Assembly: GCA_964019415.1 (NCBI GenBank)
Contig: OZ025889.1
Coordinates: 4,204,899-4,268,898 of the forward strand
Source of the DNA: Ianthella basta
Lineage: Eukaryota > Porifera > Demospongiae > Verongiida > Ianthellidae
Direction of reading: 5' to 3'
DNA: 64,000 nucleotides
Shown here: in pieces, positions 1-64,000 of the stretch
Layout of the letters: every line of letters starts with the position of its first letter
Numbering within the stretch: position 1 is the stretch's first letter
The notes under the pieces: generated by a model
Database searches by the model: none
Told to the model about the DNA's origin: nothing
Seen by the model: the letters and a program-made list of their open reading frames with translations, nothing else
Program-made: the position numbers and the translations under genes

Positions 1-1609
1 TGATCAACCAAATAAGGTGAATTGCATGAGTACTAGTACAGTTTGTGATAGTGCACTTCGTGTATTATGTGTTACTGAATCTTCATGTCATTTGTACACT
101 ATTAGTCGATGCTGATCATGGAATACCTCTCTAGGGGAGATCTCCGCAATTATTTGATCCAGTCCAGGTATTGCTCCAACACCTTTAACAGAATGCAGCT
201 TATAATCCGCATCATGTACAGTAATGACTCTTAAATCATATTAAAGCTATTGTCATTGCTAGGACTGCTCCAGCAAAGAAAAAGTTTCCCCTTCAGCTAC
301 TGAGGTTCTGTCAGGAGATAGCTGATGCTATGGAGTACCTCTCCAAGAAGGGTTTCATCCACAGAGACCTTGCCGCAAGGAACGTACTGCTGAATGAAGA
401 GTACACAGCAAAGGTTATTATTATTCATACAGTATACATTTGGCCAGCTATAGTATAGATTTATACTTCCACACCCTGACATACAATGTCTTGTTGCAAA
501 ACAATCTTATACAATAAGTTTTAAATTTAGCTAACAGACCATTCTCTTGAATATAATGTATATGCACACTGTAAATTTCCCTTCCTTGCTTTGGTATACC
601 ACTGCATTGAATATGCAAGATTGCTGATTTTGGCATTTCCCATGACATGGATGAAGATTACTGCTACAAACCCAAAGGAGGTATGATTCCTGTCAAGTGG
701 ACAGCTCCTGAGGCCATTTTGTACAGGAAGTACACCACAAAGAGTGATGTGTGGAGCTATGGGATGGTGATGTATGAGATATGGTCACTGGGACACAAGC
801 CATTTGAGGAGTTTGACATTAACCAGGTTAGTCACTTTTCTTCAGCACTTTAAGCTGCATTATGTGATCATTGTGCAGCTGCATTTGTACTAGTCTATTT
901 TATTCTGCTACAGGTTCTGAGAGTTTTTCAAACAGGATACTGCCAGCCTCCCCCTCCTGGTTGCCCCAGAAGCATCTACATGTTGATGGTGGAGTGCTGG
1001 TGAGTGCATCAGTAACCACACTGAATTAGTAATTTTCGACAATTTGAAAGGTTAAAGAATATAATGATGCACACTTGCTTATATCAGAAAGGAAGGGATT
1101 GTGCACATGGTTCCATTACATTAGCATTACACAATGATGTTTACACATTGCATGTTATTATTTCAATGCTTATTATGCAGCACAACATTATGTTAAGAAT
1201 ACCCACTCGGTATATACCAGCATAGCAAGAAATGCCAGACCTTAAAATCTGCACTAAATAATATGCACAAGTTATTCATCTCAACTCCCTTTGTAGATCC
1301 ATAGCTCACACATGATATCATTAATTTTATGAACATTATAATGCCATCAATTGCACCCATATTGTCCTTTCTTCACCTATATATCCCTACCTGTATATTA
1401 ACCATCCCTCATGACACCTCAGGAACCCAAACCACCACTCCCGTGTCACCTTTGAGGATCTCACAAGGGAACTGACCAGAGACCCTAAAGCACTTCTGAG
1501 CTGGAGCGAGGAAGACATAACAGCCTCTTCCAAAGCTGCTGTCCTGGGGGCACCTCTGGAGGAAGGGAGACACCTCTACCAGGACCTACTGGGGAAGCAC
1601 CTTCAGTGA
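1..1609 (+). CDS. RTK-1: 3' part of a receptor tyrosine kinase gene (cut by window start)
   Basis: Only the end of exon 7 (1-16) and exons 8-12 are present: 106-167, 263-413, 620-826, 914-999 and 1423-1609 (TGA stop). Borders are GT/AG and phases match the other paralogs. The product covers the kinase from strand beta5 ([12 protein letters not shown], Met gatekeeper) through [11 protein letters not shown], the activation loop and PVKWTAPEA, and ends in a tail with GRHLYQDL. The activation loop reads DYCYKPK where most paralogs have DYYYKPK, so one candidate autophosphorylation Tyr is Cys. Exon 9 starts with an unusual Lys-rich TAPAKKKFP stretch. The block is nearly identical to RTK-2 about 5.35 kb downstream. 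The N-lobe and ectodomain lie outside the window, so function cannot be judged. Confidence 0.85.
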
Positions 1610-2334
1610 ACTTTCTAATTAGATTTGTATGCAAAATCTCATCAGCACTAGTAGACAAGTGTGTGTTTATAGGTTTAGGAAGCACAAATGACAAGCTACT
1701 GTACTTAGAAATTGGAGGTCATTTTTGTACAAATGCATAACATAGCCAATAATTTTGTGTGTGCACATGCTGTCAGTGTTCTGTAAAGGATATGTGACAG
1801 TGAAAGTTGTTGAATCATTTTGGCAACATTCTACAGTATATATTAATTATATTATGCAAAACTGGTGAATGATCATGACTTTGTGTTCAAAGGTGCATTT
1901 CAAAAACTGGGCATACTTTACTAACAGTCACCAGCTCATCCACAAAATTACAATCTAACTTTAGAAGGACATAGTATACACATTTCAGACCACAGTCAGA
2001 CTAATTATGTTAGTCCATCATTCACATATTCAGGGTGCTCTATAATGCAGTAGGAATATTCCTATATAGGCAATATGTACTTCAAAGCTGCAGCTTACAA
2101 GCAAGAAGGAGAATACGTGTATTACATACATGCAATTATACTGTAGCTATGCATATACACCATTCATAATTATGCATGGTTGTATTAAGTGTCATAGTCA
2201 GCCATACATATAGTGTGTCTGAACTTTAGACTTTAGGAAGCATCACTATATAAAGTGAAGCTAAAAGAATAGTTGTGCAGAGTGATATAACCTAACCTTC
2301 TAAAGTGTCTTGGCAACCAAATTAGCTATAGCAG
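1610..2334 (+). other. RTK-1 to RTK-2 intergenic spacer with a promoter-like block
   Basis: No gene is seen here. The first 400 bases resemble the 3' flanks of other RTK copies (for example about 6960-7200). The last 100 bases match the region just upstream of the signal-peptide exons of RTK-5 and RTK-8, but the signal-peptide exon itself is missing. Promoter-like sequence joins directly to the end of exon 2 of RTK-2. Confidence 0.6.
2240..2310 (+). promoter_or_regulatory. Putative TATA-containing core promoter (RTK-2)
   Basis: TATATAAA at 2247-2254 is followed by GTGAAGCTAAAAGAA. The same block precedes first exons at about 21845 (RTK-5) and, more diverged, 35042 and 45401. Conservation between paralogs that have lost surrounding sequence suggests function, but no transcription start can be read from sequence. 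Confidence 0.4.
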
Positions 2335-4067
2335 TGTTGATCATTCTCACCAACCATACCTACTGGAATACAAACAGAGTTGACAGCAGGTATATGAATC
2401 TGCCTATATGCCTGGCATGCAGTATCATCAGTGATTGATCAATTGTGCATGAGTTGCTGTGTTATTGCTTATGCTAAATAATAAGCACATAAATGCATCT
2501 ACAACAAAGTGCAGTATATAGTATAAGTAATGTATTATATAAGCAGTAATTATTATTCTCCCTAATTTTGCAGTTGTTGTCTACCAATAGTATTTATTGC
2601 AAGTAATGGTGAGTTCTTAGGCTGTCCTAGGAGCTACAGCTATACCTCATTATTGAATTGAATCAGCAAGGTATGTTGCAGTTAACATTGCATGGCTTGA
2701 AACTCAGAAATTACATTGTGTATATCTACTGAGTATCAAACTATGCTAATCTATAATTCTGCATATCAAGAGTGAGGCAATGATGCAATATCGAAGCTGT
2801 ATGCCATATGTCTACATATATCTACAGCACGGATTATTAATTCACTTCCAGATTTATCTCACTGCCTTCCAAATAACTCTGGAGTGTGCCTTACAGCCCC
2901 AACTTGTGAACCACAGAGTAGCAACCCCACAATGGAATCAGCTGCAAGTACCAGTAACAATTCAAATGTGTCCCAGACTAGCATACCTATAACCCCAGGA
3001 TATGCTGTTGCCATTGCGCTGGGTGGTCTGCTGATCATACAGTTCATCATGGTCTGCACTACAGCATGCGTGGTGTGCTTTAAGAGAATTCAAAGGAAAA
3101 GGGAGATGAATCGAGAAGGAACAGGTAGCCTGCATGGGAATACAGGTATAGATGAATAAAATGTAGGTAAAGGTATGTGTATAGTTGCATAGCTTTGTGT
3201 GCTTTCGTGAAGGAAATGTTTTGCACAATGTTTTTGCGTAGCATATTGCACTAGTTGCTATTCTATTGTATGTGGTAACCTATTCAGGTATTCAGACATA
3301 TGAAACTTTCCATTTCCATTTAGATGGTGTGATCTACGTAGTAGGCACAGCGACTCATAACACCACGGAGGTCAGTGCATCATCCAATACAAATGCAACC
3401 AGTACATATATAATGGTTAGCAGAACAAACACAATTAACTGATGTGCAAATTGTGATAATCACTAACAGTGCTGATATCAATGTACCTTTATGTATGCAT
3501 GTGCAATTCTCTAATGTGTGGGGGTATATTTGAGCTTGAATATTGTTTATGATGGTACTGCAAGCAAGGGATCTGTAGAATACCTGCATGTTCACAGAGT
3601 AAACCCAATCACTCTGTAGCAAGCAACTCTGAGATCTTCAGTTGACAGCCTACCGGAAACACGCAAAGGCAGCCAATGGAACAATACCGGCAATGCCATG
3701 CAAGTAAGGTGTACATTCAAGGTTTAAGCTTGTGTATTCCGTGTATATAATAGATTAAATCTCCAATATCAGGAATAGGATGCATTGAGAAATATCACAC
3801 CATGTTGCAAATGCTGGGGTAGCTGGAATATATGGACCATACCAGCCTACATACGTAGCTATCACTAGTCAGTGCAACAATCTCATGGGCATTTCATCTA
3901 GTGGATCAAACAAGTTACGCTAGCCAAATACACAAAAATGCACATGATTATCATGCATGTTATTAATGATAGTGAAGAAAAACTGGCAGTGACTAGTACG
4001 CATAGCCGATAAGTCAATACTTGGAAGTTATTACATAGCATGTGATTCTGTATGCATTGGTCTGTAG

Positions 4068-4189
4068 GAAAATGCAGCTGTACTTCAAAGTAATGTCTAC
4101 TATGAATGGAAAGAGGAGTCATACTGGACACCAGCTGCCACAATCAAAGACATCAAGGTGCAAATGCAGCAGAAACGTATTCGATCCTT
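4068..4189 (+). pseudogene. Broken duplicate of RTK-2 exon 7 (5' part only)
   Basis: This segment follows a TCTGTAG acceptor and repeats the first 122 bases of the intact exon 7 at 5005 with few changes. It then jumps, in mid-exon, back into a copy of its own upstream intron (4190-4235 repeats about 4011-4056). Reading through gives a stop within about 12 codons. It is the scar of a local tandem duplication that preceded or accompanied the adjacent element insertion. Confidence 0.8.
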
Positions 4190-4236
4190 AAGTCAATACT
4201 TGGAAGTTTTTACATAGCATGTGATTCTGTATGCCT

Positions 4237-4985: not shown

Positions 4986-7343
4986 TGTATGCATTGTTCT
5001 GTAGGAAAATGCAGCTGTACTTCAAAGTAATGTCTACTATGAATGGAAAGAGGAGTCATACTGGACACCAGCTGCCACAATCAAAGACATCAAGGTCCAA
5101 ATGCAGCAGAAACGCATTCGATCCTTTGAGTTGCAACATGAAAGCATCACCCTCCTGGGGGAGTTGGGTTCGGGAGAGTTTGGGATGGTCCACAAAGGAA
5201 AGTGGGAAGGCTCCCCTCAGGGACCACTTCAGGTAGCTGTCAAGTCCCTCCACAGGCAGGAGGAGGAGAGCAGGTACAAACTGCTCAAAGAGGCAGCCAT
5301 CATGGGACAGTTCAACCACCCATATGTGGTCAAGTTGTATGGAGTCATTGATCAACCAAATAAGGTGAATTGCATGAGTACTAGTACAGTTTGTGATAGT
5401 GCACTTCGTGTATTATGTGTTACTGAATCTTCATGTCATTTGTACACTATTAGTCGATGCTGATCATGGAATACCTCTCTAGGGGAGATCTCCGCAATTA
5501 TTTGATCCAGTCCAGGTATTGCTCCAGCACCTTTAACAGAATGCAGCTTATAATCCGCATCATGTACAGTAATGACTCTTAAATCATATTAAAGCTATTG
5601 TCATTGCTAGGACTGCTCCAGCAAAGAAAAAGTTTCCCCTTCAGCTACTGAGGTTCTGTCAGGAGATAGCTGATGCTATGGAGTACCTCTCCAAGAAGGG
5701 TTTCATCCACAGAGACCTTGCTGCAAGGAACATACTGCTGAATGAAGAGTACACAGCAAAGGTTATTATTATTCATACAGTATACATTTGGCCAGCTATA
5801 GTATAGATTTATACTTCCACACCCTGACATACAATGTCTTGTTGCAAAACAATCTTATACAATAAGTTTTAAATTTAGCTAACAGACCATTCTCTTGAAT
5901 ATAATGTATATGCACACTGTAAATTTCCCTTCCTTGCTTTGGTATACCACTGCATTGAATATGCAAGATTGCTGATTTTGGCATTTCCCATGACATGGAT
6001 GAAGATTACTGCTACAAACCCAAAGGAGGTATGATTCCTGTCAAGTGGACAGCTCCTGAGGCCATTTTGTACAGGAAGTACACCACAAAGAGTGATGTGT
6101 GGAGCTATGGGATGGTGATGTATGAGATATGGTCACTGGGACACAAGCCATTTGAGGAGTTTGACATTAACCAGGTTAGTCACTTTGTTTAGCACTTTAA
6201 GCAGCATCATGTGATCATTATGCAGCAGCATTTGTACTAGTTCATTTTATTCTGCTACAGGTTCTGAGAGTTTTTCAAACAGGATACTGTCAGTCTCCCC
6301 CTCCTGGTTGCCCCAGAAACATCTACATGTTGATGGTGGAGTGCTGGTGAGTGCATCAGTAACCACACTGAAGAAGTAATTTTTGACAAAGTTTAAAGAA
6401 TATAATGATGCACACTTGCATATATCAGAAAGAAAGGGATTGTGCACATGGTTCCATTACATTAGCATTACACGATGATGTTTACACATTGCATGTTATT
6501 TCAATGCTTATAATGCACAGCAGCATAGCAAGAAATGCCTTAAAATCTGCACTACATAATATGCACTAGTTATTCATCTCAACTCCTTTCATAGATCTAT
6601 AGCTCGCAAATGATATCATTTATCAACATTATAATGCCATCAACTGCACCCATATTGCCCTTTCTTTACCTATATACATATATTATATTAACCATCCCTC
6701 ATGCAGGAACCCAGACTACCACTCCCGTGTCACCTTTGAGGATCTCACAAGGGAACTGACCAAAGACCCTAAAGCGCTTCTGAGCTGGAGCGAAGAAGAC
6801 AAAACAGCCTCTCCCAAAGCTGCTCTCCTGGGAGCACCTCTGGAGGAAGGGAGACACCTCTATCAGGACCTACTGGGGAAGCACCTTCAGTATTAATTAG
6901 ATTTGTGTGCAAAATCTCATCAACACTATATAGTACACTAGTGTGTGTTTATAGGTTTGCAAATGGTGAATAGCAATTATTCTTTTTACACACAAATATA
7001 GATACAATAATAGCTGCTTGGAAGCACAAATGACAAGCTACTGTACTTAGAAATTGGAGGTCATTTTTGTACAAATGCATAACATAGTCAATAATTTTGT
7101 GTGTGCACATGCTGTCAGTGTTCCGTAAAGGATCTGTGGCAGTGAAAGTTGTTGAATGATTTTGACAAAACTCTACAGTATAATTTCTGTTACAGTATAA
7201 TTCTGCAAAACTGGTGAATGATCATGACTCTAGTGATCCAGACTACAGTTGTGTTCAGGAGGAGGCCTATTTTGTCGTAGATGCTCATTGCTATGTTGGA
7301 TAATCATTACAATACAGAAAGGATATGCATAGACTAGGCTTGT

Positions 7344-9234: not shown

Positions 9235-12200
9235 ATGGGTACACATTGGAGTAATTTGAAGTGTACGCTGTTCTTTGGTTTCTTCTTCCTCAGTCTCAAC
9301 TCAGTTTCAGGTACAGGCAATTTTTATATACTACATTTCTGAGGTATTCTGTGACTTGCATACATTATATATGGAATGATGGGAGTGTATTATGGGAATA
9401 TTACTGCCAGAGGCCTAACAGGATGAACTTAATGCATTTTAGATTGTTTATTTGTATAATTATTACCTTTAGTCACTACCGACTCTTCGTATTACTAAGT
9501 ACCAGAGTTGATCCTCAAGTAGCTGATCTTTATTGTACAGTTGCATGCCCTAAGTTTCTGTTGGTTACCTATAGTAATTCAGTTTAGCTATGGTTGCTTC
9601 AAGAGTTCCCGAACAGTAATGTATATTGTGAAACACGACAAGTAGAATGCCACAAATTCTACAACTTCTTTTAAGCTAAAACAAAATTATAGGCTGCACA
9701 AGACTGATTCGGGAATATAGGAAAGGACTCTATCACTCAGGTATTGCTATACTGTAAATATTGTGACTTCGAGCTGAGGGTGAGAGGTTTTAGGACCATA
9801 ATTAAAAATGTACCCACCAGCAGCATTAACAGAGTATTCAGAGCACTACTAAGGAAGTATTTTCCTCTTAAGAATGCTTGAAGAAGTTAAATGCTCGATC
9901 ACGTAATATAACCTCCTAAAATATTCACATCAGCTTCATGCATCAACATCATTTATTATTAATTTTGCATATATTTTATAATATCATTTGTACTCAATTG
10001 CATATACCTGGCACAAAATTTATTATGCATTTTTACATTTAGGTGACAATTGCAGCAAGTGGCCATCAATGGCCATGGCCAAAGCCAGTTTGAGAACCAT
10101 GACTGAAGAGCTGTCCAACTGCGATGTAAATATAATGGGCTTCATAATGTGTGGCTGGGGATCTGATACAATACCCTATCCTAGTGTTTTTGTAAGACAA
10201 ATGAGTGAGGAGAGGTGGAATGCAATTGCAAGTGTGCAGTATACTTCAAGTGAATCCGGCATGTATGACAACCCCATAAGCATCAGTAACAACGATGAAC
10301 TCACCGTCATTTTCATCCGCCAAAACTACTGGACTACAAACAGTACTGACAGCAAGTAAGCAAGCGAATCTGCCTATATTTGGCTTGCAGTGTCAAATCA
10401 TCAGTTGTGTTATGATCAGTATGTCATTGCATAATATTAATTGTGTGAACCCATCTGAACGAAGTCACTACAAACAACACCATTCTTATGAATTTGCAGC
10501 TGTTGTCTGCCATTAGTGCTCACTACAAGCGACAACTGTCCAACTACTGAAATGCCCATGCTCTACCTTGTGTATGAAATGATGTCACAAGGTAAGTTGC
10601 AATGCATTAAGTTATTCAGATAGTTATTTCCGAGTTTCAAACCATGTATTCCATAATTCTACATATACCAGTGATGAGGCAATGGTACAATGCTGAAACT
10701 GTGTGCAATACGTGTGTACATACCTTACCATATTATATCTAGCAAGTATTGTGCTTATGGTATGCCAAATTATATACTACTTGTTCCCACATTATATATT
10801 AGGCTGCTTACAGGATCCCACTGTAGAGTGCCTAAGAACCCCAATGACCCAAGGTGCATCTCAAGGTAGCAGCCCCACACTTACCCCAGGAGCAACTGTT
10901 GCCATTGTACTGGGTGTTGTGCTGATCGTACAGACCATTGTCTGCACTGTGGCATGGGTTATATGCTTTAAGAGAAGGAAGGGGAAGATGGAGAGAGAAG
11001 GAACAGGTAGGCTGCTTAACTGGGTAAATAAGTATGACTTGTGTGAATAGTACATACAAATGTGTATTCATACATCAAGACATTGTGTCATGTCCTTTCA
11101 TGCATGAAATGTATGGTACAACATTGCATTTCTGTTTCACTGAAAGCTGTAACCTTTTCAGGAATTCAGACTTGTGCAACTTTTTGTTTCCATGTAGATG
11201 GTGTAATCTGCGTAGTAGGCAAAACAGCTAAAGTCACTGTAGAGCTCAGTGCATCATCCAGCACGGATGCAACAAATATGAATATTACAATGGTTAGTAT
11301 TATACACGCAAGTATTATACAAATAAGGATATTGTACCAGTACACATAATCAACAAAAATTAATGTATGTATTAATGCACAGCCACCTTATAAAAGTTAA
11401 TAGGAAGTCACTATAAGTACATAATGGTGTAAAGTGGGAGTCTTATGCACGCGATTGTGCTCTAAGCAAGGGTTGCTGTAGTGCCAACTTATACAGGAAG
11501 CAACCGTCCAGGATGTTCCTATGCCCATTTATTTTACAGCAGGCGACTCAAAGACCTTCAGTTGAAAGCCTACCAGAATCACAGAAAAGCAGTCATGGAT
11601 ACAACACCAGCAGTGCTATACAAGTACGTATGTTCTTCGTTCAAGGCTTAAGTGTATGTATGCAGTGAATTTGTCTAAAATGTTAACAGCATTTCTAACA
11701 TAACAGCACTTCAAACATTGTCACCATGTTAATTAGCATTTGAAATAATGTTACTGATTAGTCATTGCCTGGCGTTGGAACTTTCTAAGGAGGCTCTACA
11801 TAAAGGACAAACACATCAGTCCTTAAGGTTGGCTATGACCAACAATTCAGTTGCTAAAATTAAAGGGTCAGCTATAGAACTAGCGGTTGCCACCTCTTAT
11901 CCAGTCTACTATCACTATCCCTTCCCCATCATTCATACCATGTGTCACCATGGTAAATAGACCATCATACTAAGCCAATTTATTATACATACGTATGTAA
12001 CTTCATTATACAGGAATATGAAGTCATTCAAAGTGATGCCGACTATGAATTAAAGGATGACTCATATTGGAAACCAGCTGCCACACTCAAAGGCATCAAG
12101 GCCCAAATGAGGCAGAAGCATACTCATTCTGTTGAGTTGCAGCCCGAGAGCATCACCCTCCTGGGGGAGTTGGGGGAGGGGGAGTTTGGGATGGTCCATA

Positions 12201-14051
12201 AGGGAGAGTGGGAAGGCTCTCCTCAGGGACCACTTCAGGTGGCTGTCAAGTCCCTCCGCAGGCAGGAGGAGGAGAGCAGGTACAAACTGCTCAAAGAGGC
12301 AGCCATCATGGGACAGTTCAACCACCCATATGTGGTCAAGTTGTATGGAGTCATTGACCAGCCAAATAAGGTGAATTGTGTACTAGTACAGTTTGCAATA
12401 GTGCACTCCATATATTATGTGTTGCTGAATCTTCACGTCACTCTATATGCATACATGATGTTGCAACTTCACATAATTTCTGCACAATTAGGTGATGCTG
12501 ATCATGGAATACCTCTCTAGGGGAGATCTCCGCAATCATTTGATCCAGTCCAGGTATTACTCAAACACTTATAACATATCGTATAATCAGTATCATGGCT
12601 GCATGGTACAGTGTGTACAGTAATGACAAATCATGCATTTGTCTTCACTAGAACTGGTCCAATGCATGAAGACCAGCTACTGAGGTTCTGTCGGGAGATA
12701 GCTGATGCTATGGAGTACCTATCCAAGAAGGGTTTCATCCACAGAGATCTTGCTGCAAGGAACATACTGCTGAATGAAGAGTACACAGCTAAGGTAATCT
12801 TTTTCATGCAGTGTGCGTACATGTAGACAGCAATAACGATTACTTCCACACTCTGACATACAAAGATCTGCTGCATAACAATATCTACAGGTAGTCACAA
12901 AGTTAGCAGACCATCCTCTATAATGCAATATATTGTATGTATGCCCTTCCTTGCTTGGATATAATAATGGGCCATGCAAGATTGCTGACTTTGGCATGTC
13001 CCATGACATGGATGAAGACTACTACTACAAACCCAAAGATGGTGTGATTCCTGTCAAGTGGACAGCTCCTGAGGCTATTTTGTACAGGAAGTACACCACA
13101 AAGAGTGATGTGTGGAGCTATGGGATGGTGATGTATGAGATTTGGTCACTGGGACACAAGCCATTTGAAGATTTTGACATTAATCAGGTTAGTCACTTTG
13201 CTTAGCATTATATTGAAGAAGAATCATGTGATTGCCAAGGACAGCATTAACAGTCCATTCGTACCTGTTTCAGGTCCTGAGAGTTTTTGAAACAGGATAC
13301 TGCCAGCCTCCTCCTCCTGGTTGTCCCAGAAACATCTACAAGTTGATGGTGGAGTGCTGGTGAGTACATTAGTAACTTCATGATTGAAGTGAATGTGACA
13401 AAAGGTTGAACAAAGCAACAATGCACACTTGTGTGATTAAACAGAAATGAAGGGATAGTGCATGTCTAGGGCGGATTGAGAACCTTTTATGACTGGTTTC
13501 CAACGCATAAAGGTATAGCCATAAGGAAGCATAGACATTATAAGACTGATACATGCAAATACTAGCCAGAGGTGATCTGACCAGTTTCTGGAAACCTTGG
13601 AAACCCCCCTGGATCCACCCTTGCATGTGCTTCCAGTATAATAGTATTACACAATGGTTCTGATATATTGCACATTTTGAATTCAATCTTTTGATTTCAA
13701 TCAGAAAATACCTGACCTAAGAATTATACTCCATATAAACTGTCCTACAATAAACTTACATGCATCTCAACTTCTTTTGCTGACTCACAGTATCAACATC
13801 ATTACCCCCATATTGCTGTCCTTTCTTCCTTTATCCTTCCCCTATTAAATTCATCATACTTCAGGAACCCAGAGCTCCACTCACGCTCCACCTTTGAGGA
13901 TCTCACAAGTGAACTGACCAGAGACCCTGAAGCACTGCTGGGATGGAGAGAACAAGACAAAACAGTCTCTCCCAAAGCTGCTGTCCTGGGAGCACCTCTG
14001 GAGGAAGGGAGACACCTCTACCAGGACCTGCAAGAGAAGTACCATCAGTGA
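9235..14051 (+). CDS. RTK-3: complete receptor tyrosine kinase (about 634 aa)
   Basis: Exons: 9235-9310, 10043-10355, 10500-10591, 10803-11006, 11198-11292, 11540-11623, 12014-12370, 12492-12553, 12652-12793, 12981-13187, 13274-13359, 13865-14051 (TGA). All borders are GT/AG and total length is in frame. Exon 1 is a signal peptide ([20 protein letters not shown]). Exons 2-3 form a small ectodomain starting GDNCSKWPS and containing NCCLPL; I know no matching domain. The stalk is short. The membrane helix is [18 protein letters not shown], followed by FKRRKGK. The kinase has [26 protein letters not shown], an activation loop with DYYYKPK and PVKWTAPEA. Substrates are unknown. The tail has [14 protein letters not shown], a candidate YxxL docking site. 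No defect is seen. Confidence 0.88.
11720..11966. repeat. Interspersed repeat, copy 2 (RTK-3 intron 6)
   Basis: Shares its ends and internal blocks with 7381-7690 in the same orientation. It is absent from the matching introns of RTK-5 and RTK-7, so it is a separate insertion. Confidence 0.4.
13467..13621. mobile_element. hAT-like MITE (155 bp) in RTK-3 intron 11
   Basis: The left end TAGGGCGGATTGAG pairs with the right end (reverse complement AGGGTGGATCCAG). The flanks TGCATGTC and TGCATGTG form an 8-bp target duplication with one mismatch. The matching introns of RTK-4 (about 20780) and the 44-kb pseudogene (about 44293) have the site without the insert. No coding capacity. Confidence 0.6.
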
Positions 14052-15481: not shown

Positions 15482-15554
15482 ATGGGTACACTTTGGAGTG
15501 ACTTAAAGTGGCTGTTTTCCCTAGGTCTCTCCTTCCTCATCACTTCAACTTCAG
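15482..15554 (+). CDS. Alternative signal-peptide exon for RTK-4
   Basis: Encodes MGTLWSDLKWLFSLGLSFLI plus TSTS, ending in phase 1 before GTGCAT. It is a hydrophobic leader closely similar to the next one at 15978-16056 and in the same splice phase, so either can join exon 2 at 17138. Use of this exon would give a 698-aa receptor. It may be a true alternative first exon or the remnant of a lost gene. Confidence 0.6.
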
Positions 15555-15960: not shown

Positions 15961-15977
15961 GTCAACAACTGAAGAAG

Positions 15978-21979: not shown

Positions 21980-30033
<8,054 letters not shown>

Positions 30034-42772: not shown

Positions 42773-42774
<2 letters not shown>

Positions 42775-42853
<79 letters not shown>

Positions 42854-43450: not shown

Positions 43451-43452
<2 letters not shown>

Positions 43453-43990
43453 ATGTTTCATGGTACATGATGTAACAAGTTGCAGGCAAATACAATAAAC
43501 TCAAAATTTAAAGAAAGTGGGAAAAGATACTCATTTCACAGCTCCCAGCTTAAGTCACACGCTGAATGCTCCAGCAGGTTGGATCATAGAGCAACTGTAA
43601 GCCCTATGCAACATCATGTGAGTAGATGAATAGAGCCATGTGATCTGACAGTGCAACTATCCCTGGCCAGCATGTGAAAGCATGTGCAGTGCTGCTCCAC
43701 CTTCCCTGTTTCTATTACTGCTAAAATAAATACATGTACAACTACAGTTTTTAGGGGCATGGTTAGGATAAACATTGCCATCCCAGTACTCTCTTATGTG
43801 TTTTCGGAGTACCAGCTTAATTCATTTGGGTAGAACATACAAAAATTTATTGTTCTTTCAACTTGAAGTTACCCTGTACCATAATTTTTAACATTTTTAT
43901 TGCTGTAATAAAAGACATTACAGACCCAATATTCATGACCCCACGCTTGCTGTTACGTAGCTATATACAGTCGTACAGACTTAGGGCCAC
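43451..43990 (+). other. RTK-7 3' flank
   Basis: Shared with 29197-29720 and 51590-52020. No gene is seen. It joins abruptly, within a TCGTACAGACTTAGGGCC segment, to kinase exon 10 sequence. Confidence 0.6.
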
Positions 43991-51525: not shown

Positions 51526-51583
<58 letters not shown>

Positions 51584-52640: not shown

Positions 52641-55600
52641 TTAGGATTTAGCTAAGATGGGTGAAATAGCCGCCAACTCCTGACGTGGGGTTTGTAAATA
52701 CAACTGATAGGCTGAGCTTTCCCATCTTCCAAGCAACTTTATCTTGGCATCAGAAACTCCTGCCCGGAGAGCTGTGGTTGCTGCCCCAATGCGGAAGCTG
52801 TGTCCTGCATAATTGGAGTCATTGATACCAGCCAGGGCGAGAGCTTTTCTGAGACTGCCCACGAAATAGCTGCGCGTAAGTGGTTGACCCTCGCTGGTAA
52901 GAAACAGTGGACCTTCCTTTGTCCCGCGCAGCTTGATGTATTCTAACATAGCTTCCACTGGGCATAGGGCGACACCAGTACGCTGGAAATATATCCACAC
53001 CCGTTTCCCAAATTGGTCGGTTTTAGACATCTTGATTTTTACCGCCAACGTTGAACACTGAACGTCAGGTGTTACCAACACATCCCCCAGAGTTAAGTGC
53101 TTAGATAGGTCGAAGGCATTGACTGTGAAGATGGTAAACTCCGCGCAACGTAGGAACCCAAAGAAGCCCAGGCAAGCTGCAGCCCAAAGCATGCGGTTGT
53201 CCGAAGTGTTGCTCCTCCAAACTTTCTTTAGGTCCCCCAAAATAGCAGGGGTGATTGGGAGCCGAACTTTGGAACTTGCCACATTACACTTTACACGCTT
53301 TATCCGAATTATCAGCCACTTTTTTCAGGATGTCTGCAGGGATAGCAGGAAGACCTCCCCCCAGCACGAGACCTGACTTCTGCTTGGCTGGTTCACCTGA
53401 AGCCCCTTTTACCACCGAAGCCACTGGGACCATGTCTTTGGCACTGACCCCAACATCTTGGGCCGCTGGGTGAAACAAAACAAAAGACAAGAACAAGGCA
53501 CCAATTTAGCCAGTGACCGGACTGGCTATACCCCTGAACTTGCCCGACTGGTATGGACCCTGGTACCCTATACCCCAGATGTGACCACAACTGCCTACTA
53601 AACCACCAAAGTAAGCAGCCCAGACCATACTGTTGCCTCCCCCCACAAAAAGGAGGGGGGGGGGGCAGTCGGCCCAACCTATTCAGATTGCTTTGCCAAT
53701 GGCAACCGACCAAACCATTCGCTGCTTTAACAGCAAGCATACCAAACCATTCTGCTGCCCCAATAGCAAGCAGACCAGACCATTCCGTTGCCCAATAGCA
53801 AGCAGACCAAACTATTCTGCTGCACCAATAGCAAGCAGACCAGACCATTCTGCTTCACCAAAAGCAAGCAGACCAGACCATTCTGCTGCCCCAATAGCGA
53901 GCAGACCCAACCATTCTGCTGCCCCAAATAGCAAGCAGACCCGACCATTCTGCTGCCCCAATAGCAAGCAGACCCGACCATTCTGCTGCCCCAATAGCAA
54001 GCAGACCCGATCATTCTGCTGCCCCAATAGCAAGCAGACCCGACCATTCTGCTGCCCCAATAGCAAGCAGACCCGACCATTCTGCTGCACCAATAGCAAG
54101 CAGACCCGACCATTCTGCTGCCCCAATAGCAAGCAGACCAGACCATTCTGCTTCACCAATAGCAAGCAGACCAGACCATTCTGCTGCCCCAAAAACAAGC
54201 AGACCAGACCATTCTGCTGCCCCAATAGCGAGCAGACCCAACCATTCTGCTGCCCCAATAGCAAGCAGACCCGACCATTCTGCTGCCCCAATAGCAAGCA
54301 GACCCGACCATTCTGCTGCCCCAATAGCAAGCTGACCCGACCATTCTGCTGCCACCAAAGGCAAGCAGACTGAACCATTCTGCTGCTCATAGCATGCAGA
54401 CCCAACCATTTTGCTGAACCAGTAGTACCCGGATTAAGCCCTATAGTTGCACCAATAACTAGCAAACCGACCAATACTATTTGGCTGCCCCACTAGTAAA
54501 TAGGCCAACTGCTCCACTAGCAAGCTGGCCCAACTATTCTGCTGCCCTACAAGCCAGCAGCCCAAAAAAAACTTCTGAACTACTGCCAGGAAGCCACTCT
54601 ATACAGATGCCATTGCCTGCTGCCCATGGCATTCCCCGTAGCCCAGCAGCCGACCACTTGCTGCCCTACAAATGTGCCCACCGAACAAGACGTAACTACA
54701 TAGAGCAGGCCAAGGGACTCTGACCCCTAACCACTATACCAAGTAACCAAGTAAGTATGCTCCACCATAGGAGGAGCCCGTAGACCCCCGTAAGCCAAAA
54801 TAGGCCCACCTAAATGACCTACCCCTAACATGCCAATGAAGCCTATGGAGTCCCACTAACAGCGTGTTTACACTGGCATCCGGTTCCGGGCCAGCCCGGT
54901 TCGGCACGGAACGGCACAATAAAAAAGTGTAGTGTAAACAGAACCGAGCCGTGCCGAACCGTGCTGGCGCGGCTCGGTTAACTCACCCGTGCTGGCTCGC
55001 TTCGGCCCGGGCTGTCCTGCCAGTGTAAACGAAACCGCGCTGGAACCGTGCACTCGAGAAGAGTGCGCATGCGTACGAACGAGCGCCGTCTTCGCGCGAA
55101 TTCAAAGCTACATGGCTACGTGGACAGACGACGAGACGACAAAACTGCTCGAGGTATGGGGAGACGACGATATACAGAGACAGTTGCAGGGTTGTAAGCG
55201 CAATCATGGTATATATGAGAAGCTTTCCCGCGAAATGGCAGCAGCAGGGTACAAGAGAGAGGCAGTACCGTGCAGGGAGAAGATAAAGAAATTGAAAGCT
55301 GAGTACAAAAAAGTTAAGGACAACAACAGCAAAACCGGTAGTGCCAGGAAGACAACCAAATTTTTTGAAAAAGTGGACGAGATTTTAGGTCACAGGCCTG
55401 CTACAAGACCAGCTGTTGTCATTGACACGTCCTCCACGACTACATCTGAGGATAGCTCTGTTACAGAATGCTCAATGGTCATCTCTGATGAAGAAGAGGG
55501 AGCCTCTTCAACACACATTGATGTCAACGTCAGTGATGATGAACAGGATGTGAACCAAGATGCTAAGGATGTGAAGCCAAAGATAATGAAGAAAAAGCGC

Positions 55601-58226
55601 AAACGACCCGCAAGAGAAGAGATGATGGAAAAAGCAATGGACACAGTGATGAAGAAAATATCAGACATGCAGAAGGAGAGTGACGCCTGCTTTATTGCCC
55701 TAGAAGAGAAAAGGATGCAGCTAGATGAGAAGATGTTAGAGATGGAAGAGAGAGAAAGGAAGGAAGCTAGAGACAGAGAGGAACGTCTACGTAGGGAAGA
55801 GCGTGAGTTTCAGATGAAAATACTACAGTTGCTGTCTCAACAGTCAGTTTTCCGTACCCCACCACCTGCCAACTACTACACTGGGGCATCTGTAACTAGT
55901 AGACCCGGAAGTGGAAGCATGTATGAGTGGCCCACTGATGAAACTCAGTGAACTCAATTGAAGTAGACTGTATGCATTTATGTAGTTACTTGCACTCAAA
56001 ATACATTATGTACATGTATATACTCTTTATTGTACTGAGGTTACTACACGATTACACAGACCAATACATACAAGCGATGTCATGAAATAACAATAATAAT
56101 GACAGTTATACCAGAGTAACATAACAGAGTGTATGATATTGTTATACCAGAGTAACATAATGGAGTGTATGAAATTGTTATACCAGAGTAACATAATGGA
56201 GTGTAACTATATATATAACATTCTAGATAACTACATGAAGTATTGCACCAGGGTGTCTCTAATATCTTTAGAGTGCGCAGATGTAATAACTGGTGTAGCT
56301 GCACAGCCTGGTTGTTCCAACCTGGCACCCTCTAGCCAGGAGTCGACAAAGGCATCACCGTGGACTTCACACATATTGTGTAGAATACAACATGCAGTTA
56401 CAACCCGAGGAACATGTGCAATATCCATGTCGTTCTGTCTGAGTAGCCTCCTCCATCTAGCTTTCAATTGACCGAAAGCGTTCTCTACTACAATACGTGC
56501 TCTTGAAAGGTGATAGTTGAAGGTCTTTTGGTTGTTAGTCATTGCTGAATTGTGTGGAAAGGGCTTCATTAGCCATGTACTCAGTGGATACGCAGAGTCA
56601 CCAACCAGAAATGGTAGAATATCCTTTCCTAAGACATTCTGGCTAAAGTCATTCAGTATTTCTTTATTCGTGGCCTTGTGGTACAGCTGAGAGTTCGCTA
56701 GTACTCGTGCATCATGCACGCTTCCAGGCCAACCAACCATAATGTCCGTAAATAGATAGCCATGGTCCACTACAGCTTGCAGGACAATAGAATACCAACC
56801 TTTACGATTGTAATAGTCCGTGTGGTTTAGGGCTGGAGGTTTAACAGGGATGTGACATCCATCAATAGCACCTGCACATTGAATCATCTGCCATTTCAAC
56901 TTAAATCCGTCAACTACGTTTCGCAAACTTTCACCAGTTGGAAATTTAATGTATCGTGACTGCAGAACCTGGACAATTGCTGCACATGTATCATGCACAA
57001 TGACACACACTGTGCACCTTGCCACACCAAACAAGTGCCCAATGGTACGATATTCCCCGCATGTTGCTAGACACCATAAAGTTATTGCTACCCGATGTTG
57101 AACACAAATAGCCCTGCGTAGATTAGTGTCTTTGCGGCAAATAACAGGTTTTAGCTGATCACACAAATAAAGAAACGTTTCTCGGCTAACTCTAAAATTT
57201 TCAATCCAATCTTCTTGTGTGAATGTGCGTAAAACGACATACTCCCACCAGTGAGCCGACCTGTAGCAATGAGAGCTAGCTATTACTTGTTTTTCAGTGC
57301 ACCATACTTCAGGTTGCCTAAATAGTACTTGCTACCATGCAGATGCGCACTGCATAAAATTTCCCACGAGCTCACCTCTGCAATGTCCACACCGTTCTTG
57401 GTCTGGGTACGAAGCCCACGGCAATGGCGGTGGTAAGCGCTATTAGCAGAACAGCCTTCTCTCGCAGTTGTAGTTGCCTTTGAAACGAGAGTCTCCTTCG
57501 TGCCCGGCGGCCTCTCCTCCTCAACGAGCTCTGTGACGAATTAGAGGAAGACGGGGTGCCTCTGGACGATAGCAGGAGCTTACAAAGGGTTACAACGCAG
57601 TTCGACGTCATCTTTATCGAACAGAAACAAAACGCCGCGATACGCATAGTAACTCGTATCGTATCAGCAGTGTAAACGCGGGCCAGCACCGCTTCCTGGC
57701 ACGGTTCCGGAATCCGTGCCGTGCTGGCCCGGAACCGGATGCCAGTGTAAACACGCTGTAAGAGCAGCAAAATGAGACACTGAGAACTCCCCCTTGACCC
57801 TACACTCATGCATGCATACACACCCACATGCACACATGCACACCCACACACACACTGGTAATGGTAACCCCATTCCAAACCGACACAAGAATGTTCATAC
57901 ACACCCGCAAGCAAACTACCCAGTAACATGCATGCAGGGCAAGTAAATAGAGAGGAAGCGAGAGCACGGAGTGATAAAATAGTGCGTGATAAGAACTCAC
58001 CGGAAAGAACTTCAAGACCGGTCGCCAGCGGAAGCCCCGACGCAGCGGGGGTGGGGGTGGGGGTAGGGGAAGAGGCGGAGGCGGAGACCGAGGCTTGCTG
58101 AAGAGCGCCTAGTTGCTGCAGGATAGAGGCCTGCGTCCGCTGCTGCTCCTTCAGCTGTTCCTGCAGGGACTTGAGGGCGGCTGCCACTCCAGTTTCGGAA
58201 GCAGAGGAGGCGTTTTCTTCGGCCAT
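52641..58226 (-). CDS. Tyrosine recombinase of a DIRS/Crypton-like element (two exons, frameshifted)
   Basis: Exon 1 (58226-58001) encodes 75 aa, starting MAEENASSASETGVAAALKS with a Gln-rich coiled coil, and ends in phase 1 at GTGAGT. Exon 2 starts at 53465 after TTTCACCCAG in matching phase and reads AAQDVGVSAKDMVPVAS, then GLVLGGGLPAIPADILKK. After a one-base shift near 53285 it continues as the recombinase (to 52641). The recombinase has FFGFLRCAEF (catalytic Arg), KMSKTD (candidate Lys), GHSFRIGAATT (HxxR), LGRWESSAY and LYLQTP (nucleophile Tyr), the full tyrosine recombinase set. The GLPAIPADILKK motif recalls the gag-like part of animal DIRS-type elements; no reverse transcriptase lies between, so either a deletion occurred or the element is Crypton-like. 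Probably inactive because of the frameshift. Confidence 0.6.
53728..54415. repeat. 33-bp minisatellite in the recombinase-gene intron
   Basis: About 21 copies of a 33-base unit (CCAATAGCAAGCAGACC plus CGACCATTCTGCTGCC). Because 33 is a multiple of three, long open frames appear on both strands; none is a credible gene. Internal copies are more uniform than edge copies. Confidence 0.95.
55112..55951 (+). CDS. Harbinger Myb/SANT-like DNA-binding protein (279 aa)
   Basis: Residues 1-100 form a trihelix-type Myb/SANT domain: MATWTDDETTKLLEVWGDDD, then CKRNHGIYEKLSREM, CREKIKKLKAEYKKVKD and FFEKVDEILG. The middle is Ser/Asp/Glu-rich. Residues 180-250 are Lys/Glu-rich and predicted coiled coil. 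In Harbinger elements the second protein of this type binds the ends and helps the transposase enter the nucleus; that role is inferred from family. The ATG at 55112 is chosen because the preceding in-frame bases lie in subterminal repeats and the Trp-containing domain starts at residue 2. It is convergent with the transposase. Confidence 0.88.
   Translation: MATWTDDETTKLLEVWGDDDIQRQLQGCKRNHGIYEKLSREMAAAGYKREAVPCREKIKKLKAEYKKVKDNNSKTGSARKTTKFFEKVDEILGHRPATRPAVVIDTSSTTTSEDSSVTECSMVISDEEEGASSTHIDVNVSDDEQDVNQDAKDVKPKIMKKKRKRPAREEMMEKAMDTVMKKISDMQKESDACFIALEEKRMQLDEKMLEMEERERKEARDREERLRREEREFQMKILQLLSQQSVFRTPPPANYYTGASVTSRPGSGSMYEWPTDETQ
56105..56208. repeat. Three 36-bp tandem repeats between the Harbinger genes
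   Basis: GTTATACCAGAGTAACATAA recurs at 56105, 56141 and 56177, each followed by a GGAGTGTA-like segment. It lies just past the 3' end of the transposase gene and may form its 3' UTR; function is unknown. Confidence 0.9.
56231..57611 (-). CDS. Harbinger DDE transposase (two exons, about 421 aa)
   Basis: Exon 1 (57611-57376) starts MTSNCVVTLCKLLLSS, is Arg/Ser-rich and ends VWTLQR before GTGAGC. Exon 2 (57260-56231) follows a CTACAG acceptor in matching phase and opens SAHWWEYVVLRTF. The catalytic triad of the DDE_Tnp_4 family is visible: Asp in GAIDGCHIPV, Asp in FLVGDSAYPL, and Glu in ARIVVENAFGQLKARW. Other family marks are YYNRKGWYS, GWPGSVHDARV and CCILHNMC. The reading frame is open throughout. 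It would cut and re-insert the element at TWA sites together with the Myb-like partner. Confidence 0.92.
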
Positions 58227-58503
58227 GCCGTAAGGACCGTAGCAAAGGCGAGCACCAGACGAGCGAGCGGGAGACGCAGGCGGACTCTTCAGGTAACGGT
58301 TGTTACTAACCGAATGACACTGTCGTGAAGGGCTGAGGCTCATATCCCCCCTAAACCGACGAGGATTGGATCTAGCGCATTTGAATATTTCGGACTCGGC
58401 GCCGGCCAAAGTTCCGCCATAATGGCGGAAATAAGTGAAAAACAGTGACGCAATATTACGTCCATTAACCTTGTTTAACCGCCCCGTGGTTAAACTTCAA
58501 ATG

Positions 58504-58914: not shown

Positions 58915-61900
58915 ATGGCCACTCCGTGGAGTAACTCGAACTGGCTGTGGGCACTTGTTCTTCTGTTTCTCAGCCATTCCTCCATCTCAGGTACGCAGAC
59001 TGGAAGGGAGGGGGATAATTAATTAGCTATAAGGGCGTACGCCGTACATGGGCAACAAAGGAGTTAGAGGCTAACAAAAGGCTTTATGTTACTGACAGCT
59101 GTATATGAGCATTCATGAGTACTAGGATGGAGGATAACTTCTTCGAAGATCTGGCAAACAATTATTATTGTGACGCACCGGTAGAAGAAGAGGAAATGTG
59201 TACTCCTTTCACTGCTTCACTGACATATCATCATTATGCAAGCTAGGCTCAGACAGAATGGTTACGTAAGATAGCATGATTGTACATATGACGAATAAGT
59301 GATGCTTCATGAAGTAGCTATAGCTAGCCCAATGTGTTCACAATAAAGAGGCACATAATGCAAACCATTTGTATGGTGGTGATGGTGGTCTTCGCATAAC
59401 TGCATAGGCTAAATAATTGTTGTGAATTTATGTCACACACTGTTCTCACTTGCCAACACAATGGACGAGTGTTTATGCCGTACAGTATTCTCTGCTTTCT
59501 ATGCAGGTGACAACTGCAGTAGGTGGCCATCATTGGTTAGCCAAAACTTAACAAATGTACAGTTTAATTGCAGTGGAATCATCACAGGCTACAGATTGTG
59601 CAATAGATCAACTGATGATTACATAAGTGTTGGTCTCGGTGTATGGAGAAGGGGCAGTGGTGTGCTGAATACAAGAGCGACTTACTTATTTGATAACAAC
59701 ACACATGAAGGTATTGGATTGAATTACAACCGTGGTGACCAACTCATGTTCGTGATCATCTACTATGGAAATACAAGCATTAATGAGTACAAGTATGTAC
59801 AATTAAAAGTATGCATTGTCGCAAGTCATGTACTAGCTATAGAGTCTGACATTAATCAAACCAACAAGATAAAGATTTTGAGAATGATACTTGCATAATG
59901 GCTCTCTCAATATTAATTGTACATGCAGCTGTTCTTTGCCACTGTTCACTTCAACCAACATCCGTAGCAGCTGTGAAGGAGGAAATTCTAAGCCAATGCT
60001 ATACCTCAATGTGACTAATGGTAAGCTGCAATCAGGCACATAAAGTATGTGTATATGATAGTGTAGCTACTGTACACAAAGGGAAAATGCACTCAATAAT
60101 ATATGGCCACCATATAAACTGTCGCTGTTGTCTCTGAGGTGTACTGTAATTGTATATATATCTTGGAAGTAAACGCTAGCTGCAAAGAGTATGCATGAAC
60201 ACTGCTAATGCAGTACGTGTTGGATTGGGTATCACATGCAGAATGCAAAAGGTTAACAGCACTAAGCATTAACTATATATTTTGTGACATAAAAATACTT
60301 ATGCACACAACTTTATAGCATTCGGACATATGTATTGTTATTCACTGCTGTCCAAATAGATTGCCTTGAAGAAGTCCATCCAGAAGCAGTTGATACTGGA
60401 ACCACAACTTGTGCACCAGCACAAGCACGTGCACCGCCATGTAAACAAACTGCACAGCCAACGTGCACTGCCACTACTACTGACATTTTAGTCAGCTCAA
60501 TGCAAGTTACAGAAACTCATTTCACCACGGTGACAGTGGCCGCATCAGTTCTCACTGAAAGTCACTTTCTTACTATGACAGCAACCAACACCATCCCAGA
60601 GGCATCCAGGCAGTCATGTGCAGACCCTCTCCCCTCAAACACTGCTACCATTCAAAATGCATCCCAGACTAGTAGCCCCACACTTATCACCCCAGGAGCA
60701 GCTGTTGCCATTGTACTGGGTGTCGTGCTGATCATACAGACCATGGTCTGCACTTTGGCATGGGTAGTGTGCTTTAAGAGAAGGAAGGGGAAGATGAAGA
60801 GAGAAGGAACAGGTAGGTATAGGCTGAGTGAACAAGTATTTAATATTGATCAATAAACAAGCTTGATCTAATTGATATTATGTGTTGCACAAGTACGTAA
60901 TGTCTTAATGCAGTTCCCTATAGGAATGTTTTGACATATGACATTGTACTATTTGTTTGGTCAATTCTGAACTGCAGCCCATTCAGGTATTGAGGCTCAA
61001 TTTTTCCTTTCCATCTGTGCAGATGGTGTAATTGGCATAGAGATAGAAACTGCTGAGAACACTGCTGAAGTCTATACATCATCTAGTTTCATGATCACTG
61101 CCCCAAATACAGGTGAAATGGTCAGTAAGTTTCAGTGTATATTGAAGTCATTACTAGTACAGACTGTGTACAGCTATGCCAACTATATTAACAATAAATA
61201 CTGTCATACATAATTTCAATGTGCACTCATGCACTGGTGACAGCTTCCATATATATTTATATTACAAGCTATCATGCATTAATTGCAAAGGCAATAATAA
61301 TATAAACTCATTATGGTCATAAAATGTCCCCATACTCGTTCATTCTATGTAGCAGCAAACTACTCAAAGACCTTCAGTTGACAGCCTACCGGAATCACAG
61401 AAAAGCAGCCATGGATACTACAACATCAGCAGCATCATATCAGTATGTTTGCAATCATCAGTCAAGCTTCTAGTCAAAGGTTATGTGTGTCGCGTCTCAC
61501 TGAAGGTTATCACACATCATTGAACAAGCTGTAAACACCAGAGTGGCTAGGTAGATCAAACCAGTTCAACTTTTATTGTTCACAATAGCCCAAACGTAAG
61601 CAATATTAGGTTTCACTAGCGTGCCCTGCAGCTGATTAAACCCTTGTTCTGCAGGATTATGCAGCACCTCAAAGTACCACTGAGCTAAAAGAAGACTCAT
61701 ACTGGAAACCAGCTGCCACACTCAAAGGCATCAAGGCCCAGATGAAGCAGAAACATATTCACACCTTTGAGCTGCAGCCTGAGAACATCACTCTTCTAAA
61801 AGAGTTGGGGAAAGGGGAGTTTGGGATCGTCTACCAAGGAAAGTTGATGGGCTCTCCTCAGGGACCACTTCAGGTGGCTGTCAAGTCCCTCCACAGACAG

Positions 61901-62556
61901 GAGGAGGAGAGCAGGTACAAACTGCTCAAAGAGGCAGCAATCATGGGACAGTTCAACCACCCATATGTGGTCAGATTGTATGGAGTAGTTGACCAACCAA
62001 ACAAGGTGATTGGATTAAGATTTAGCAAATAATTAGATGAGCAATACTGCAGCTTGAAGAAAGGAGGGTCGCTGTAAGCAGTTGACGTCCTGCAACCCTC
62101 CTTTCTTCAAGCTGCAGTATTGCTCATCTAATTATTTGCTAAATCTACAATCGCAGCTATCGCCTCTACCGAATCAGTGATTGGATTAGGCACTCTTTAC
62201 ATGCAGTGGTGCACCTTCATACATTTCCACACCAATTCATCTAGGTTATGCTGGTCATGGAATACCTGTCAAGGGGAGATCTCCTCAATCACTTGATCCG
62301 CTCAAGGTATAGTATTCAAGCAAGCACCTTACATGATATGACAGTTGGCTACAGTTATGTGTGCCCAATAATAGCAACCACTGGTTGACCAATTGTCTTC
62401 ACTAGAACTGATCAAGTGTATGAAGAGTTGCCACTTCAGCTATTGAGGTTCTGTCAGGAGATAGCTGATGCTATGGATTACCTCTCCAAGAAGGGTTTCA
62501 TCCACAGAGACCTTGCTGCAAGGAACATACTGCTGAATGAAGAATACTCAGCTAAG
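58915..62556 (+). CDS. RTK-9: receptor tyrosine kinase, exons 1-9 (3' end beyond window)
   Basis: Exons: 58915-58990, 59507-59792, 59929-60020, 60360-60812, 61023-61120, 61353-61442, 61655-62005, 62245-62306, 62406-62556. All are in phase. Signal peptide [20 protein letters not shown], identical to RTK-6. Ectodomain of the RTK-6 group, but with many replacements between residues 60 and 110 of exon 2. Stalk Thr/Ser-rich. Membrane helix [18 protein letters not shown] without the extra residues of RTK-6. Kinase: [37 protein letters not shown] where others have AMEYLSKKG. Exons 10-12 are expected after 64000, because the last 70 bases match the region 100-150 bases before RTK-6 exon 10. Intron 7 carries a hairpin insertion and intron 9 a 905-bp element. 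Confidence 0.82.
62006..62188. repeat. Hairpin insertion in RTK-9 intron 7 (perfect 52-bp arms)
   Basis: Arms 62018-62069 and 62095-62146 are exact reverse complements with a 25-base spacer. About 30 further bases follow the right arm. The whole is flanked by direct repeats of GTGATTGGATTA (62006-62017 and 62177-62188). RTK-5, -6, -7 and -8 have the uninterrupted 66-68 bp intron. The duplication copies the 5' splice site, so two donor-like GTGATT sites exist. Confidence 0.9.
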
Positions 62557-62996: not shown

Positions 62997-63901
62997 CCGA
63001 TTAAAAATAGCTAACCATAAAATCGCATACAGCTCGCAGATACTGTGCGCGCACGGAATTCACTCGTACGAGTAAGAAATATACTCGTACGAGTGATGAA
63101 TGTACTCGAAAGTTAACACATTTTAAGCATTAATTCTATATTCATTCGAACGTGCGAAATCGTCTTTACCTGTGAAATCGTGTCCAAAGAGAAGACGTTG
63201 TCTTGTATACCGAACGAAATGGCAGTGAAGTGGTAGGAATTGAAGGATGTACGCAGTCACGCTGGGAAGACAAACCATGTGAACGCGAAGCCGGTTATTG
63301 GACAGCTCGCGGAGATCGCGGTCGGAGCAGAAGTTGTCGTGAGGTTTAGTGCCAGCGATACCTCGGCGCAGTGGCTGGTTTGCTAGACTGGGACCCTCCT
63401 AAGAGCCAACAAAGTGGAAGCAGCAGAGCAGGTTAGCTCGTATCCCCGTATAATCCCCGTTACGCAACGTGCACAATATAATGTTTAATATAGCTAAAAT
63501 GTCTTCCATACGATTCCTCACTTTCCTCTTCTGCTCTTGCCTCCTCAAGAGAAAGACACCTTGTGGCCGGTTCCCGATTTCTGCTGCCTCGCTCAGCGGG
63601 GAGAGTCCTGGCGATGCGTGAGATACCTTGCGTCCACGAACTAACATGCTGCCATGAATAACCGGATAAAGGGTGAACATGTCTTCTTTCTTCTGTTAAA
63701 AGGCCCGTCGCTCTCTAAGATCACTCCCGACGTATGATTTTTGCTCAAGAGCAGTCGTTCGTTAGCGCCTATGGTTAACACGTCGGCCATTTTTACTCGT
63801 ACGAGTGAGATTTTCACTCGCACGAGTAGGATTTCACTCGCACGAGTACGATTTTACGCTAGATTCACCTGCGTGTTGTCTGGCTAAGTATTTTTAATCG
63901 C
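62997..63901. mobile_element. 905-bp TIR element with ACTCGTACGAGT palindromes
   Basis: The left tip CCGATTAAAAATAGCTAACC matches the reverse complement of the right tip (GCGATTAAAAATACTTAGCC). The flanks are direct copies of TACTGTA (62990-62996 and 63902-63908). Just inside both ends lie clustered copies of the palindrome ACTCGTACGAGT and its variant ACTCGCACGAGT (two copies at about 63060-63105, three at about 63795-63850). The interior is CpG-richer than the flanks. Small minus-strand frames at 63399-63680 and 63641-63823 are not recognised, and no transposase is seen. A non-autonomous DNA transposon is the best reading. Confidence 0.55.
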
Positions 63902-64000
63902 TACTGTATGTGCCACTTAGATTTCAAACACCAATAGTGGAGCAACACATGAGAGAAGAGGCAATGCATGCCTCATGGGTTGTGGGACAGTATTACCATT

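Follow-up and report, generated by a model that had tools for sequence, protein, structure and literature searches.

Why does a sponge carry one receptor tyrosine kinase (RTK) gene many times over, with nearly uniform kinases and extracellular parts that differ from copy to copy? The question is raised by a 64,000-nucleotide stretch of Ianthella basta DNA (the window; contig C22, positions 4204899-4268898), which was analysed within a searched genome of 209 Mb in 96 contigs. The window contains a tandem array of nine RTK loci (W1-W9), all on the + strand and sharing a common exon plan. More specifically, exon 1 (E1) encodes a signal peptide, E2 (about 100 residues) and E3 (about 30) the ectodomain, E4 a Ser/Thr-rich stalk and the transmembrane segment (TM), E5-E6 the juxtamembrane region, and E7-E12 the kinase. 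Exon edges and phases were read by hand in W9, W8 and W3, and the phases were then fixed in a model builder; every exon edge is a sequence-based prediction, signal peptides and TM were called by eye, and the exons are presumably spliced as modelled. An open, spliceable 12-exon solution was obtained for each of W3, W4, W5, W7 and W8, and each of these modelled genes joins a signal peptide, a single TM and a cytoplasmic tyrosine kinase. The initial annotation had proposed nine tandem RTK loci with 12 exons in every one: the array is real, but only five of the nine loci are complete, while W1, W2, W6 and W9 are incomplete within the window for reasons that differ by locus (Table 1).

The kinase half is strongly conserved. 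Amino-acid identity among window kinase exons, with the partial copies at 4122 and 43990 excluded, is 79-100% in the E7 core and 91-100% in E10. Pfam matches of the W8 protein are to kinase families only (PF07714, 6.5e-85). When the PDB was searched with the W8 kinase half, the nearest well-populated family was Eph (EphA3, 1.6e-66); the best-scoring entry, matched at 5.7e-96 across two stretches, bears the label EGFR, and one RTKC8 kinase is among the matches. Catalytic motifs were read in 27 loci from the window, its flanks and four other places. HRD is present in 25 of the 26 loci having that exon and DFG in 24 of 25, where the exception is one C15 locus (L031, C15:796001-806000) with SGFG. 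The HRD exception is W8, whose catalytic loop reads HRELAARN, with Glu replacing the catalytic Asp. The kinase presumably signals, W8 being possibly an inactive or decoy kinase, and this copy qualifies the earlier description of the kinase exons as near-interchangeable. Ectodomain exons sort into W3/W4, W5/W7/W8 and W6/W9, the very groups named in the initial annotation, which had recognised no ectodomain fold. Likewise, a Pfam scan gave no credible ectodomain match (E2 exons reached E 0.064 at best and the stalk/TM exon 0.03, and no match passed the curated cut-offs), and no SRCR domain was found in the window ectodomains.

The two halves also differ in the ratio of nonsynonymous to synonymous divergence (dN/dS, or omega), computed per exon as the initial annotation had suggested. 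For the four closest pairs (W5-W7, W6-W9, W7-W8 and W5-W8, in this order), omega is 0.86, 0.95, 0.99 and 1.12 in E2+E3 versus 0.16, 0.14, 0.17 and 0.18 in E7+E8; in close pairs it is 0.23-0.40 in E9-E11 and 0.28-1.15 in E12. The ectodomain is thus not under kinase-like purifying selection in these four pairs. Over all pairs, E2+E3 omega is defined in 19 of 21 (0.24-1.12; synonymous divergence, dS, is undefined in two), and in the other 15 it lies between 0.24 and 0.81, except in W4-W8 (0.99); dS is close to or above 1 in many of these. The ectodomain is therefore partly constrained, which speaks against a stronger reading.

An omega near 1 is the neutral value, and such values would fit an ordinary lineage-specific RTK expansion under relaxed constraint, in which tandem copies with redundant ectodomains drift and have no special recognition role. 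Expansions of RTKs with new ectodomains are described for choanoflagellates and other holozoans in the searched part of PMC8662651. Against drift, frames are open where stops would be expected: the seven modelled E2+E3 contain no stop, when neutral drift at 0.31 per site would give 3.1-3.7 on average (the models demanded open frames; the same exons are also open in a separate exon search). Furthermore, the extracellular E3+E4 of W5-W7 diverge above the rate of the interleaved introns (33/395, 8.4%, versus 47/1822, 2.6%; p 6e-7), and the same kinase half is reused with other sensors, as described below. We therefore regard simple relaxed expansion as unlikely, though worth keeping in view.

Divergence also jumps within single genes. 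In a sliding window, W6 and W9 differ by 0-6% from E1 through intron 1 into the start of E2, by 9-39% from there to the start of E4, and then by 0-10% falling to 0-6% as far as E9. W5 and W7 diverge by 44-48% in E1 and intron 1 and by 33-54% in most of E2, then by 0% in intron 2, and the introns of W3 and W4 are 42% divergent before E7 and 18% after E8. Introns support such mosaics in all five pairs tested (Fisher test, 1.6e-24 to 1.3e-203). Because the introns shift in divergence together with the exons, selection at the protein level cannot be the cause, and we infer that the mosaics were produced by recombination and not by some other process. Between ectodomain groups, introns are unalignable, kinase exons have low dS, and matches tend to end at exon edges (W4-W8 E12, 90.7%). 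Short conversion tracts may leave such a pattern; the alternative would be constraint on synonymous sites.

The array extends far beyond the window. Using a 102-residue exon of the kinase N-lobe as probe, for which counts are exon matches, some with stops, and not proven genes, at least 150 matches were obtained genome-wide; those listed fall on C22 (66), C15 (67), C8 (11), C11 (4), C3 (1) and C21 (1). At least 59 lie within C22:3,765,557-4,613,498 (848 kb), and these are on the + strand up to about 4.29 Mb and on the - strand beyond 4.30 Mb. Of the matches listed, 21 on C22 belong to the window's own subfamily (81-99% identity), joined by two on C11 with 78-81% identity. The window makes up only a small portion of a receptor-kinase megacluster. 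The window's ectodomains are more local: searches with E2 of W9 and W8 (E up to 1) found 7 and 5 places, which with one exception per search belong to the window cluster or lie a little upstream of it, and an E4 profile gave 16 matches outside the window, in flanking E4 exons. The copy numbers bear on a possible role in development or chemosensing, in which the receptors would bind secreted ligands of the animal itself that coevolve with them. An Eph-like kinase, and catalytic motifs that are intact in most copies, would suit such a role, but known developmental sets are far smaller than the minimum of 59 matches in this one cluster and 150 in the whole genome, and we consider this role highly improbable.

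Two other kinds of extracellular domain are found beside the same kinase. SRCR exons lie 5' of the same kinase and TM type at ten places in the mirror cluster and one on C11; the one mirror-cluster exon scanned matches PF00530 at 3e-32. Genome-wide there are at least 150 SRCR matches (1173 first-look candidates); such abundance, taken with the introns and tyrosine kinases, fits an animal genome, most likely that of a sponge. The second kind, here called FCG, is a domain of about 170 residues with an F-x-C-x-G core and a GDxLG strand, present in three further mirror-cluster exons and one at C22 3.876 Mb. No Pfam family was matched in 25 FCG members scanned (best chance matches E 0.015), and structure prediction gives a beta sandwich with high confidence (pLDDT 90, pTM 0.83). 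A C22 FCG query returned 36 matches, all at C22 3.82-4.54 Mb, and an FCG-like exon of C15 returned 81, on C15, C3 and C21; by eye and at a P of 0.002, the two forms appear to be one family. Together these are 117 matches, several being fragments of a single domain. A listed N-lobe exon occurs within 10 kb of 97 of them and within 50 kb of 115 (all but C15:3406702 and C15:6640114), whereas sequence within 10 kb of such an exon makes up about 1% of the genome. Homology between the window ectodomain and FCG is suggestive only, with hhalign P of 0.21, 0.046 and 0.0095, a profile (HMM) E of 0.51, and an E2 structure model at pLDDT 59. A further E2-FCG score of 1.3e-8 was discarded as circular, since rows were common to both alignments.

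FCG genes allow sensor and kinase histories to be compared directly. In a far group on C22 (13 loci having both exons; 25 pairs with FCG dS <0.8), median dS is 0.42 in FCG versus 0.11 in kinase E7, and median omega 0.61 versus 0.34 (E7 has few changes, range 0.16-1.23). Locus 3865 has its closest ectodomain in 3921 (dS 0.065) and its closest kinase exon in 3911 (dS 0.00), from which it differs in FCG at dS 0.44. With groups chosen after the dS values were seen, approximately unbiased (AU) tests find {3865,3921} incompatible with the kinase data (p 5.9e-7) and {3865,3911,3901} with the FCG data (p 1e-67). These patterns indicate that kinase uniformity is partly recombinational homogenisation and not purifying selection alone; low kinase divergence therefore cannot be read as selection alone.

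Taken together, we think it rather probable that the window belongs to a lineage-specific megacluster of single-pass RTKs serving as a recognition repertoire. A recognition role is the best account because SRCR siblings accompany a uniform signalling half with differing sensor halves, and the ligands would be foreign or environmental. An extracellular ligand would dimerise the receptor and turn on the common Eph-like tyrosine kinase output. Diversity would be germ-line: tandem duplication would make the copies, ectodomain exons would then diverge, either weakly constrained or under diversifying selection, and recombination between copies (gene conversion or unequal exchange, with breaks between exons or within them) would homogenise the kinase half and join it to other sensor halves (E2/E3 type, FCG, SRCR). 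The initial annotation had seen a varied sensor with a constant signalling output as the mark of a recognition system such as allorecognition, immunity or chemosensing. Overall this interpretation is partly supported: the omega contrast and the SRCR exons on the same kinase favour a varied sensor with a constant output, except that output uniformity derives partly from recombination, and nothing points to allorecognition in particular.

Several observations weigh against a recognition repertoire. W2, W6 and the fragment at 43,990 are broken, so some decay, not selection, is at work, as relaxed expansion would also predict. W6-W9 fits relaxed constraint too, both by its E2+E3 omega and by an E4 that shows no excess over introns (14/447 versus about 3% in flanking introns). 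In E12, two of the close pairs have an omega of 0.98 and 1.15 (60 codons, dS 0.06-0.09). SRCR pairs are mostly constrained (omega 0.24-0.62, one 0.84; 41 of 45 pairs with dS <1), and SRCR and FCG exons are linked to kinases by position and strand alone.

A recognition repertoire could alternatively be an allorecognition locus, in which the variable ectodomains would recognise touching tissue as self or non-self, with the kinase then setting off fusion or rejection. Tandem array, fast ectodomain and mosaic exchange also occur in known allorecognition loci, those of Hydractinia and Botryllus. However, SRCR siblings are more typical of receptors for microbes or debris. In the Amphimedon graft RNA-seq paper (PMC5450542), neither 'kinase' nor 'receptor' occurs in the text searched, which is weak evidence. 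We find allorecognition doubtful, and microbial or environmental recognition rather more likely. A bolder proposal, which we consider unlikely, is that an early animal lineage has a dedicated germ-line cassette system: over several hundred kb, directed conversion would keep one signalling half uniform while at least three kinds of sensor (E2/E3, FCG, SRCR) would be swapped in, individuals would carry different repertoires, and the cluster might be the lineage's long-sought self/non-self locus.

Table 1. Positions in the window of the RTK loci, their modelled exons and the changes in divergence between loci.
Feature	Start	End	Strand	Details
W1, 3' part	1	1606	+	end of E7 (to 16), E8 106-167, E9 263-413, E10 620-826, E11 914-999, E12 1423-1606; 5' part beyond window edge
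W2, 5'-truncated	2340	6893	+	remnants of E2 end 2340-2387 (weak, E 1.7) and E3 start 2575-2613; E4 2777-3124, E5 3324-3415, E6 3620-3703, E7 5005-5364, E8-E12 to 6893
W3, complete (12 exons)	9235	14048	+	E1 9235-9310, E2 10043-10355, E3 10500-10591, E4 10743-11006, E5 11198-11292, E6 11540-11623, E7 12014-12370, E8 12492-12553, E9 12652-12793, E10 12981-13187, E11 13274-13359, E12 13865-14048
W4, complete	15482	21252	+	E1 15482-15554, E2 17138-17438, E3 17615-17709, E4 17913-18308, E7 19355-19714, E10 20319-20525, E12 21069-21252
W5, complete	21980	28798	+	E1 21980-22052, E2 23533-23854, E3 24016-24122, E4 25172-25459, E7 26264-26620, E10 27770-27976, E12 28618-28798
Breakpoint zone W5 vs W7, inside E2	23760	23860	+	33-54% on the 5' side, 0-3% immediately 3'; differences 520/1086 in intron 1 vs 47/1822 in introns 2-6
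W6, no E12	30034	34290	+	E1 30034-30109, E2 30626-30911, E3 31034-31119, E4 31463-31915, E7 32759-33109, E10 33928-34134, E11 34205-34290
Divergent island W6 vs W9	30690	31560	+	E2 (second half) through E3 into the start of E4, with introns; intron divergence 81/442 vs 37/1270 (Fisher 3.7e-24)
W7, complete	35948	42526	+	E1 35948-36029, E2 37241-37535, E3 37697-37803, E4 38847-39203, E7 40008-40364, E10 41538-41744, E12 42346-42526
Breakpoint zone W7 vs W8, 5' edge of E6	39700	39790	+	about 40% upstream, about 7% downstream, introns included; 230/563 vs 72/977, p 9.5e-56
Decayed 3' fragment between W7 and W8	43990	44769	+	half of E10, E11, E12 with frameshift and in-frame stop
W8, complete	45533	51285	+	E1 45533-45605, E2 46745-47093, E3 47223-47335, E4 47676-47951, E7 48961-49317, E9 49564-49714 (HRE), E10 50453-50659, E12 51105-51285
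W9, E1-E9	58915	62556	+	E1 58915-58990, E2 59507-59792, E3 59929-60020, E4 60360-60812, E5 61023-61120, E6 61356-61442, E7 61655-62005, E8 62245-62306, E9 62406-62556

Among the incomplete loci, no E1 was found in W2 by fixed-phase model or profile search, E12 of W6 was found neither by model nor by tblastn, and E10-E12 of W9 were not found inside the window. W1 and W2 arose by recent duplication, sharing two blocks of roughly 2.3 kb at 96.2 and 97.0% identity, and within W2 a fragment of the E7 start is duplicated at 4,049-4,189 (98% like 4,986-5,126). E2 of W8 more likely ends at 47087 than at 47093, with a GTATGT donor there as in other loci. Upstream of the window, at C22:4187811-4188183 (L012), an E2-like exon in two frames with a stop is a broken ectodomain. 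Intron 7 of W9 carries an inverted-repeat insert (62,040-62,160) absent from W6 (intron 239 versus 66 bp). Between W8 and W9 lies a transposon-like insert (52,641-58,496), probably Harbinger-like plus another element judging from its open reading frames: Phage_integrase-type (52641-53324, -), Myb_DNA-bind_4 (54938-55951, +) and a DDE_Tnp_4 transposase (56231-57331, -). A 33-bp tandem repeat of 21.9 copies (53,696-54,416) has a frame open on both strands. TG/CA microsatellites at 22,076, 29,034, 34,830, 42,775, 43,308 and 51,528, mostly 3' of a locus's last kinase exon, are possible recombination-prone sites.

In titles and abstract openings, we found no SRCR-tyrosine kinase receptors and no such array described in a sponge or other animal, which is not proof of absence. 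Plant receptor kinases and immune genes of animals already include families with a variable sensor and a constant output. What differs here is that a tyrosine kinase provides the output and that introns and conflicting trees directly reveal how one kinase half is reused with different ectodomain modules. It is also a warning that low kinase-exon divergence in such arrays is not, alone, evidence of purifying selection. If this is a recognition system, the locus is now mapped and could be used to test how an animal lacking adaptive immunity distinguishes microbes, neighbours and self.

Comparison with known systems gives partial likenesses. Eph RTKs are the nearest well-populated family to the W8 kinase half, but by Pfam the W8 protein has no ephrin-binding, FN3 or SAM domain. 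SRCR repertoires of sponges and sea urchin are likewise large tandem families in the parts of PMC10855680 and PMC4772301 searched, the latter giving more than 1,000 SRCR domains, and SRCR exons occur in the mirror cluster here; the window genes, however, have no SRCR domain, their intracellular part is a tyrosine kinase, and the word 'kinase' is absent from the searched text of PMC10855680. The Arabidopsis OAK tandem array of receptor-like kinases, as presented in the portion of PMC3136440 searched, differs in being of plant Ser/Thr type with malectin-type ectodomains, and no homology is claimed. Choanoflagellate RTKC and other lineage-specific RTK families, as far as covered by the text searched in PMC8662651, are similar as private expansions that couple a tyrosine kinase to unusual ectodomains; they differ in having other ectodomains, and are not shown there as tandem mosaics.

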